In this document: one piece after another, positions 22,524 through 25,733 of the stretch
Layout of the letters: each line of letters begins with the position of its first letter
Position numbering within the stretch: the stretch's first letter is position 1
DNA from: a virus
IMG/VR virus record: IMGVR_UViG_3300046048_001048
Coordinates: 1 to 26,631 of that record
Reading direction: 5' to 3' (one strand)
DNA: 26,631 nt
The notes under the pieces: generated by a model
Told to the model about the DNA's origin: nothing
The model's input: only the letters and a program-made list of their open reading frames with translations
Databases searched by the model: none
Position numbers and translations under genes: made by a program

Positions 22524-23756
22524 CTAGTATACTGTGTTTATCATTTCATTAACCGCATCGATCTCATCAGACTCAGCAAGTTTCGCTTTGAATGTCATCT
22601 CGATGCACCTTCTGATCTCTGGGATATCAGTAAAGAGAGTGCAGATAGTCTCAAGTCCTCGAGGACTGATAGATAGGCTGATCTGCGATTGCTTATATCC
22701 ATTCCTCACTAGGTTGGCGAACCTCACTAGCTTTGTGATCTCTGACTCTGCCATGCCGGGGTACTTACCCTTTAACATCTGGATTTCTAACCCCTCTTCG
22801 AGATACGGAACCTCAGCAGTGATACCATACCTGTCTAGTGTTGAGATATCCTGCATCTGAGTGGCTGCTAGTTGGGCGAAGTTATCACCAAGCCCCTTGG
22901 CATTGTCGGTTAGTATCATACGGAACAGGGGATGTGGTATTACTTTCTTATCGTTATGAGTACCGGGCTTATCATCCAGAATCAAGTACCCATTATCCTC
23001 ATATAGTGTCTGAAGTGACATCTGAATACCTGCCGGTATCTTCATCACCTCATCCATGATCACGATGTATCCCTCACGTGTACCCTGAGGCATCATACCA
23101 TCCTTCCATTCCATTCCATCCTTAGTAGCCCAGATCATACCGAGAAAACTGGAGGCCTCAACACCATCCTTACCATTAAACCTCATGACAGGATGACGGA
23201 CCCACGCAGCAAACTGAATAGCACCAGAAGTTTTACCAGTACCCGGGAATCCTGTTAACAATATTTTCTTGTTGTGTTTATAAGCCATCCATAAGGACTC
23301 CAACAAGTCAGCATTCCACACGTACTCTTTGTCTACCTCTGGTATATCCGCGAGCTGAGTGTCAGTCCACACATCATCTTGGTTCTTTGTAAGAACATGA
23401 TCAATCCCAGATGTCGGTAGCCTACCGCCTGTTACATCAGTCAGAAAGAACTCATTCTTCTTGAGCTTTGGTTTAGGTGGTGGTGGAGGAGGGGGTGGAG
23501 TTTGAAATGCATCATCCGGATCAACGAATCCCATAGATGCGGACAGCCCTGATGCTGAGTCAGGATCAAGAGCACCAAACCCGGTGGTTGTTGATGAACC
23601 CTGCCCACTTACATCCTCGAGGAATTGAATTGGAATAATCTTCTTCCTCCCTCGATGCATGAACATCACCATGTTCTTATCAACTTTACTTGCTTCGATT
23701 ACAGTACCTTTTGGTATCTTAGAGTACTGTTCCCTTAGTTTGAATTGTTGTACCAT
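22524..23756 (-). CDS. MoxR/CobS-like AAA+ ATPase
   Basis: 410 residues from ATG 23756 (AAGGAGG ahead; longer frame through the palindrome ignored). A 75-residue N-terminal domain and a flexible poly-Pro linker (eight Pro near 87-94) precede the AAA+ core: Walker A GFPGTGKT (169-176, K175), Walker B IVIMDE (D235, E236), LTDNA (sensor 1), LDRY (Arg finger R309) and SPRGL (sensor 2 R366). MoxR-type ATPases remodel or load metal into partners and pair with VWA proteins; the VWA gene is immediately upstream. CobS-like ATPases are known in other phages, with unclear roles. Confidence 0.85.
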   Translation of the reverse strand: MVQQFKLREQYSKIPKGTVIEASKVDKNMVMFMHRGRKKIIPIQFLEDVSGQGSSTTTGFGALDPDSASGLSASMGFVDPDDAFQTPPPPPPPPKPKLKKNEFFLTDVTGGRLPTSGIDHVLTKNQDDVWTDTQLADIPEVDKEYVWNADLLESLWMAYKHNKKILLTGFPGTGKTSGAIQFAAWVRHPVMRFNGKDGVEASSFLGMIWATKDGMEWKDGMMPQGTREGYIVIMDEVMKIPAGIQMSLQTLYEDNGYLILDDKPGTHNDKKVIPHPLFRMILTDNAKGLGDNFAQLAATQMQDISTLDRYGITAEVPYLEEGLEIQMLKGKYPGMAESEITKLVRFANLVRNGYKQSQISLSISPRGLETICTLFTDIPEIRRCIEMTFKAKLAESDEIDAVNEMINTVY

Positions 23757-23767
23757 TAAACCTCCTT

Positions 23768-23783
23768 GTGCATCCAGATGCAC
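23768..23783. repeat. Interspersed palindrome copy 7 (upstream of AAA+ ribosome site)
   Basis: GTGCATCCAGATGCAC on the + strand (CTGG centre on the - strand). It lies between the VWA stop and the AAA+ start and is directly followed by AAGGAGG on the - strand. Confidence 0.92.
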
Positions 23784-23786
23784 AGA

Positions 23787-25733
23787 TCATAAAAGTGTTT
23801 TCTTTAGTGCTTCAATAAGCACTTCCTCTAAGTCATCCGGTCTATTGATCACGACGTTGTTCTTGTAGAACTTCTTCACACTTGAATCACAGATACCAAT
23901 GCCAACCAAGTCAATCGCACCGGAGTTCTCTATCATTTCACACACCTTCTTGAGATACCATTCACCATCATTACCATTGTCAGTAGCCCACCCTTCAGGT
24001 TGACCATCACTTAATACAATCTGTAATTTATTGGTTTCTGTTCTCTCAAATAGACGTGATGCTGCTACAACAAGAGCCTCAGCATCAGGAGTATATACCG
24101 TCTCGACATCGGATGATGCTAATCGGCCTATAAGTTTATCTTCCTTGATGTTCTCATCAAACAATTTGAATGCATAAATATGCAGCTTCCTAAATGGCTC
24201 AGTGAACCCGAGTATCTCATGTGGGATACGAAGGTCGGTCAGTGTCTTAGATATCATCACGACACTGGCTGCAGCAATTTCATACTTGTTATCCCAATCC
24301 ATAGAACCAGAGCAATCCATTAAGATACTCACTGCTGTATCAGTCTTCAGCCTGTGAGTTACCTTCTGTTTAAATATACGAGGATCACTCTCGTCAACTG
24401 GAGTGTACAACCTATGCAGATTCTTGCCATGTATCTTACCACGACGTAACCCATATTGATATGAGTCACGAGCCATAACCTTAAAGAACTTCTGCACATT
24501 CTTTGATATTGATTTAATATTTAACCGGCTAACAATGTTCTGGTATTTTGAAGCACCTTCCGTGGCTACACTTAAGGACACAAACTTAGGTGCACCCATT
24601 GGTATATACTTCTGCTTGTCTGTTCCTTCATCGAGATAATCCCCAACCTTCTTTAACTTCTGTACATTGTCGGGTAAATCCTCGGTGTCATCATCGGGTG
24701 GCTCCCCGTAAATCTTGGTACGAGAGGGGTTGTTGTCCTCTTCACCATCATCGTCGGGATTCTCTCCAGATTCATTAGAATCTCCGCCATCTTCCGATGA
24801 CTCTTCAGAATCCTCAGTGTTATCAGTATCTTGTTCATCACCATCACCGGGTGAACCCCCGACATCTTCGGTGGACTCATCTTCACCCCCCGGACCCTCA
24901 CTATCAGGGCCACTGGACGGCTCCCCTTCTTCACCATCATCATCTTCCGATTCTTGATGTTGATTTTCAGGAGAATCTTCTTCACCACCTTCTTGATCTT
25001 GGTCGGAGTCTCCAGTTTCCTCGCTGCTACCATCGTCGGAGCTGTCATCACCAGAATCATCACACTCTTCTGGTTCTGGCTCATCAGGTTCAGCATCCTT
25101 AATCGTATTGATAATATCAAGGACTAAACCATAGAGCTGTTCAGCATCCTCAGACTCCATGATGTATGGTAGCTGTTGGAAGATACGCATAGGTTTCAGT
25201 ACCTTAAGATACTCTTCACCACCTGCCATTACTTTACCAAGTGGGAAAGAACCCTGCCACTTACGTCTATCCTCGAAGTCAAGGATATACAGTGCACTGA
25301 TAGAGGGATGCTTCCTGTTAAAGACTGTTGCCATATTATCCACAAGGTATTTATATCTACCCTTGTAGAGTATACGATCATGGCCTAAGAACATACCAAG
25401 TCTTGTCCGTTCACACATATTATCAGCGAGGACATTGAGCACCGACTCTTCTAACTTAGTCTTGCACATTCCCACTGCTGTATAAACGAACCGATGTTCA
25501 GGCAGCAAATGAGATGCTTCATGATGAGCATCCCAATCCCATAACTCAGGGGAGGCTAGGTCAGTAGCTATTGGTTCTCTAAGCAACAGCCTAGCTCTCC
25601 CCCTTATGTCTATCCCTGCACTAGGTACTCTCAAACCCTTGATAAAGGTCACGGTGATGTTGCCCTTATCACAGAAAGACACAATGAATTTCTTGTGACT
25701 CTCTGGGTTCGGAAGTTTAGTGCGTTTGATCAT
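23787..25733 (-). CDS. CobT-like VWA protein with HEASH zincin-type motif
   Basis: 648 residues. The N-terminal domain holds HHEASHLLPEH (H71, E72, H75), followed about 20 residues on by LEESVLNVLADNMCERTRL, the position of the NxLED element in CobT N-terminal domains. Residues about 213-356 are an acidic Asp/Glu/Ser spacer. The C-terminal VWA domain has the MIDAS D473-C-S475-G-S477, a Thr-containing loop near T546 and SDG (D576). CobT works with CobS ATPases to insert cobalt in corrinoid synthesis; no other cobalamin gene is here, so a related chaperone or chelatase-like function is inferred. ATG 25733 follows AGGAGG and overlaps the upstream gene. Confidence 0.85.
   Translation of the reverse strand: MIKRTKLPNPESHKKFIVSFCDKGNITVTFIKGLRVPSAGIDIRGRARLLLREPIATDLASPELWDWDAHHEASHLLPEHRFVYTAVGMCKTKLEESVLNVLADNMCERTRLGMFLGHDRILYKGRYKYLVDNMATVFNRKHPSISALYILDFEDRRKWQGSFPLGKVMAGGEEYLKVLKPMRIFQQLPYIMESEDAEQLYGLVLDIINTIKDAEPDEPEPEECDDSGDDSSDDGSSEETGDSDQDQEGGEEDSPENQHQESEDDDGEEGEPSSGPDSEGPGGEDESTEDVGGSPGDGDEQDTDNTEDSEESSEDGGDSNESGENPDDDGEEDNNPSRTKIYGEPPDDDTEDLPDNVQKLKKVGDYLDEGTDKQKYIPMGAPKFVSLSVATEGASKYQNIVSRLNIKSISKNVQKFFKVMARDSYQYGLRRGKIHGKNLHRLYTPVDESDPRIFKQKVTHRLKTDTAVSILMDCSGSMDWDNKYEIAAASVVMISKTLTDLRIPHEILGFTEPFRKLHIYAFKLFDENIKEDKLIGRLASSDVETVYTPDAEALVVAASRLFERTETNKLQIVLSDGQPEGWATDNGNDGEWYLKKVCEMIENSGAIDLVGIGICDSSVKKFYKNNVVINRPDDLEEVLIEALKKTLL

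Follow-up and report, generated by a model that had tools for sequence, protein, structure and literature searches.

A phage CobS/CobT-like gene pair with a predicted zincin-like domain lies among DNA replication genes

Pairs of a MoxR-type AAA+ ATPase and a vWA protein generally remodel or activate other proteins, including metalloenzymes (PMC7159879). In T4-like cyanophages, cobS is a core gene (PMC3037559) and cobST is said to be core (PMC8651126), and these phage genes are classed among the auxiliary metabolic genes for vitamin B12. Viral CobST was proposed to hijack host CobN, and the label 'peptidase' of the cyanophage protein was called mistaken (PMC8651126). Group 2.2 jumbo phages have a MoxR protein paired with a metallopeptidase-vWA protein, for which a role in virion assembly was proposed (PMC7824862, 2021).

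We analysed a stretch of 26,631 nucleotides of viral DNA (IMG/VR record IMGVR_UViG_3300046048_001048), called the window below. Its CobS/CobT-like pair, the parts of the two proteins and the nearest replication genes are as follows.

17739-19571, minus strand: family A DNA polymerase, neighbour of the pair (DNA_pol_A 7e-28)
19580-21238, minus strand: primase-helicase, neighbour of the pair (phrog_239 2.6e-129)
22524-23756, minus strand: MoxR/CobS-type AAA+ ATPase, 410 aa (ATG with Shine-Dalgarno; AAA_5 6e-12; phrog_249 3e-40; Walker A/B)
23229-23252, minus strand: Walker A motif GFPGTGKT of the ATPase, with K175
23769-23782, no strand: palindrome TGCATCYRGATGCA, between both genes and just 5' of the ATPase ribosome-binding site
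23787-25733, minus strand: zincin-VWA (CobT-like) protein, 648 aa (open frame with Shine-Dalgarno; CobT_C 1e-20; PHROG 1576 and 17276)
23790-24338, minus strand: VWA domain, about residues 466-648, MIDAS DCSGS at 473-477 (CobT_C; sequence match to CobT in the PDB)
24678-25088, minus strand: acidic spacer, residues 216-352 (45% Asp/Glu)
25065-25733, minus strand: predicted N-terminal zincin-like domain, residues 1-223 (AlphaFold2 model; zinc metallopeptidases are the top solved matches)
25410-25436, minus strand: N100...D104...E108 helix (conserved in the viral alignment; helix 93-109 in the model)
25509-25523, minus strand: HEASH, residues 71-75, within helix 62-74 (viral alignment and model)

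The preliminary description had read this locus as a CobS/CobT-like pair with a zincin motif, which is apt as a description: a MoxR-type AAA+ ATPase stands beside a VWA protein with an N-terminal HEASH, both genes are present and the residue numbers are right. The ATPase, with Walker A and Walker B (IVIMDE), adjoins a VWA domain with a MIDAS, the arrangement by which MoxR-VWA pairs are recognized. Its ATG at 23756, from which K175 is numbered, is preceded by the Shine-Dalgarno AAGGAGG; a longer GTG start in the list of open reading frames is unlikely, since it falls within the palindrome. The acidic spacer was also found as described, and it contains 1.5% Lys/Arg, with a run of 125 residues (213-337) having none.

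The palindrome said to separate the two genes is real. TGCATCYRGATGCA occurs in 8 exact copies in the window (starting at 6282, 13113, 13950, 16500, 19332, 21927, 23769 and 25917) and in none with 1-2 mismatches, where 0.48 copies would be expected even with 2 mismatches. Four copies directly precede, on the 5' side, the Shine-Dalgarno sequences of minus-strand genes, and two are within the endonuclease I and DNA polymerase genes, encoding HPDAQ. Folded as an RNA hairpin in four cases, it gave no significant gain over shuffled sequences, and as an element common to relatives it was rejected, being absent from them. Elsewhere in the window, a protein longer than 2060 aa (1-6273, plus strand), open at the left end, contains a second HExxH (HEAVH at 3646) and had no PHROG match. 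Two adjacent paralogous small proteins (25934-26281 and 26293-26631, minus strand) lie upstream of the pair; both start with MDINEAK and end with PTCSF or PNCSF, and no family match was found for them.

Relatives in IMG/VR were found with an alignment as the query; a scan with a single protein gave none. HExxH was present in 66 of the 70 viral relatives with a complete 5' end. When 40 viral N-terminal domains were aligned, the relatives being 10-21% identical to the domain of the window protein, H71 was kept in 38, E72 in 39 and H75 in 37; N100 and D104 were kept in 37 and 38, and position 108 was E, D or N. This conservation of HExxH goes far beyond what chance gives. Three sequences in the alignment lack the zincin site, and in these several site residues are gone together. 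Among the named phage proteins first examined, HExxH was found in 7 of 9 (ICP2 being represented by two isolates). It was lost in nickie and BUCTxx99, which nevertheless retain the pair, so catalysis is not required everywhere. Viral members with the pair and without HExxH were seen at L004, L005, L015, L016, L025 and L052.

The N-terminal domain was modelled with AlphaFold2 (pLDDT 88.7, pTM 0.86). The preliminary description had allowed that HEASH might lie outside a zinc-binding helix; the model places it in helix 62-74 of a zincin-like fold, and N100 and D104 in helix 93-109. The best solved matches of the model were the zinc peptidases BlaR1, SPRTN, minigluzincin, ArdC and M48 (Z 4.8-5.5, with the top rows at 5.0-5.5). 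Each match alone is middling, and the zincin-like reading is drawn from their agreement with the independently found motif; Foldseek against the PDB alone gave nothing below E 0.001. D104 would probably be the third metal ligand. A comparison with DUF2201-type peptidases, which had also been suggested, gave no Pfam-level match: DUF2201_N (PF13203) was absent from the window protein at E up to 0.1 and from the N-terminal domains of seven relatives at E up to 1, and it was rare among the 58 alphaproteobacteria tried.

The names CobT and CobS reflect partial similarity. The PHROG families matched by the pair are labelled 'CobT' and 'porphyrin biosynthesis', and the VWA domain matched CobT_C (PF11775) above its cut-off at 1e-20. 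The equivalog models were far from reached, with 61 bits against a cut-off of 759 for TIGR01651 (CobT), where the true CobT L092 scores 1093, and 86 bits against 558 for TIGR01650 (CobS). The CobT N-terminal family PF06213 had no match in the window. It was matched by the SSU5, CRP-810 and RHph relatives, and SSU5 reached 5e-29 with an intact HEVAH.

None of 80 alphaproteobacterial CobT proteins contains HExxH. The segment aligned to the motif reads GLGDSMALR, and the third-ligand helix reads FDAVEQARVEAIG in most of them. The viral N-terminal profile matched cellular CobT N-termini from which the acidic part had been removed (best E 7e-4, Z 177635; shuffled controls E 62 or worse). This match, the PF06213 match of SSU5 and the common predicted fold are stronger links than the direct profile-profile comparison of the viral and cellular alignments, which gave a weak result (P 0.0045, probability 7.8%). 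The modelled N-terminal domain of Brucella tritici CobT (pLDDT 93.2) has its first helices and strands ordered as in the window model, resembles gluzincins (selecase, an M48-type peptidase and thermolysin) and has its top viral matches in common with the window model. The proposed fold comparison with CobT thus gave a common predicted fold for the two domains. The solved CobT (9uka) was missing from the fold-match lists, which excludes nothing. Because HExxH is gone in 80/80 and yet the modelled fold is the same, the N-terminal domain of CobT is probably a zincin that has become inactive, whose site the phage proteins mostly keep. We found no statement of this in the open-access literature searched. 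The loss of HExxH in some viral members parallels that in cellular CobT. Among the control genomes, Caulobacter vibrioides matched the CobT N-terminal family and not CobN, so that here a cellular CobT stands without the partner it normally has.

The genes that follow the pair in the window encode the primase-helicase, the polymerase, a sigma factor, a Gp2.5-like protein, a 5'-3' exonuclease and endonuclease I. In 80/80 viral loci, the CobS-like gene comes directly after the CobT-like gene, with both in one orientation. PHROG matches of the flanking ORFs in 16 non-redundant loci were mainly to primase/helicase (21), polymerase (16) and primase (16), with terminase (2+2) and tail fiber (3+2) far less frequent. 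Of 32 polymerase loci from related viruses that could be used, 31 had the pair upstream, although these and the flank loci are not independent, since they come largely from the same lineages. In ICP2, the pair lies among primase, helicase and polymerase genes; in SSU5, nickie, BUCTxx99 and RHph_Y2_11, near a polymerase III alpha gene together with one for ligase or primase; and in cyanophage S-IOM18, whose CobT-like protein has HExxH, among gp46, gp45, replication factor C, the clamp loader and regA. In several phage groups that are unrelated to one another, T4-like cyanophages among them, the pair is therefore bordered by replication genes. Such a position does not prove that the pair works in replication.

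Our results suggest that the pair is an ATP-driven remodeller working in replication and not a cobaltochelatase. We consider it rather probable that it consists of a MoxR motor and a VWA partner with a gluzincin-like, zinc-peptidase-type domain, encoded in a replication gene block. The ring of the motor would act as one unit with the VWA/MIDAS domain, gripping a target protein and remodelling it. The zincin on its long acidic tether would bind zinc and cleave or hold the target, and judged from the conserved site and the model it is probably active. The target would most likely be a protein of, or on, the replicating phage DNA, because the pair regularly belongs to the block of phage genes for DNA replication; this assignment is the weakest step. 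The domains, the conserved motif, the predicted fold, the co-occurring partner, the replication context and the absence of CobN from the records searched are what we observed; zinc binding, peptidase activity, ring assembly and the target are what we infer for the pair. A bolder form of the same explanation is possible, if unlikely: the widespread phage 'CobST' would be a replication-coupled AAA+ zinc protease that works as SPRTN does, driven by a motor, and frees phage DNA of proteins, the CobT N-terminal domain would be an inactivated relative of this zincin, and the name 'B12 auxiliary metabolic gene' would be wrong for hundreds of phage genes.

The pair could instead activate a phage metalloenzyme, most likely ribonucleotide reductase (RNR), with the zincin-like site holding the metal or the target without cutting. 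Such activity is known of MoxR-VWA pairs (PMC7159879), weak CbbQ_C and GvpN matches were found here, and some members do without HExxH. The RNR large subunit was found in 15 of 20 carriers versus 2 of 16 viral contigs (Fisher p 2e-4), a rough comparison in which the control contigs are few, were obtained as chance palindrome matches and are not matched for polymerase-bearing phages. This background is rough because a polymerase scan for pair-free relatives gave almost only carriers. However, ICP2 and CRP-810 have the pair with no RNR detected, and the Glu of HExxH, which metal binding alone would not need, is kept in 39/40. We regard this activase role as improbable.

It is quite improbable that the pair is a virion assembly chaperone with a maturation protease, as was proposed for the jumbo-phage pair of the same domain plan (PMC7824862). 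An archaeal virus MoxR-vWA pair is needed for tail assembly, as far as the citation of it in PMC7824862 tells. The preliminary description had left a role in virion assembly open, but the context lends it no support, since replication genes adjoin the pair and few neighbours are structural.

The preliminary description had noted that such pairs insert metal or remodel partners. The reading in line with metal insertion, that phage CobST teams up with the CobN of the host to increase cobalamin, for instance to supply a B12-dependent RNR (PMC8651126), draws on both subunits being homologous to CobS and CobT and on the RNR enrichment above, in which several carriers had no class I small subunit. 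The window also has a stand-alone TSCPD-domain ORF (PF12637, 2e-5) at 10127-10555 on the minus strand. The TSCPD domain is known from class II ribonucleotide reductases, and by its sequence this ORF hints that the phage or its host may use such an enzyme. Metal insertion is disfavoured, and the cobalamin reading is the least probable of all, because CobN was absent from all 20 pair-bearing virus records and from the window (itself a fragment), the equivalog cut-offs were missed by far, the motif kept by the phages is absent in true CobT, E. coli, a recorded host of SSU5-type phages, had no CobN match among the control genomes, and six of the nine named carriers have a B12-free class I RNR with none detected in two more.

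Should the pair turn out to remodel or cut proteins in connection with replication, inferences of B12 auxiliary metabolic genes would be wrong, and the label 'peptidase' would fit the N-terminal half of the protein. A cellular CobT with the same domain and its metal site gone would also offer a testable account of the origin of CobT.

Compared with the aerobic cobaltochelatase, the phage pair has homologous VWA and AAA+ domains and the same predicted N-terminal fold, whereas cellular CobT lacks HExxH and has CobN as its partner. SPRTN, BlaR1, ArdC and selecase/minigluzincins resemble the predicted zincin-like fold, at middling scores; no sequence relation was found, and they are not known to have a VWA or MoxR partner. 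The phage 'CobS/CobT' pairs (Vibrio phage ICP2 gp41/gp42, SSU5, the Rhizobium phages and nickie) share gene order, domain plan, acidic spacer, replication neighbours and usually HExxH, from which nickie and BUCTxx99 depart; most named CobT-like proteins are just 22-27% identical to the window protein over the full alignment. The 'peptidase' (gp150) of T4-like cyanophages is alike in HEVGH...NVLEDARIER, in the adjoining cobS and in its replication block, but it is strongly diverged and was not among the records found by tblastn with the window protein. The jumbo-phage pair is, by its published description, an N-terminal metallopeptidase fused to vWA with a MoxR partner; jumbo phage Atu_ph07 gave no match, and a virion role was proposed there (PMC7824862), in contrast to the replication context found here. 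Since the plan is the same, the window pair is a member of this known kind. What is added here is the link of such pairs to CobT and to replication.
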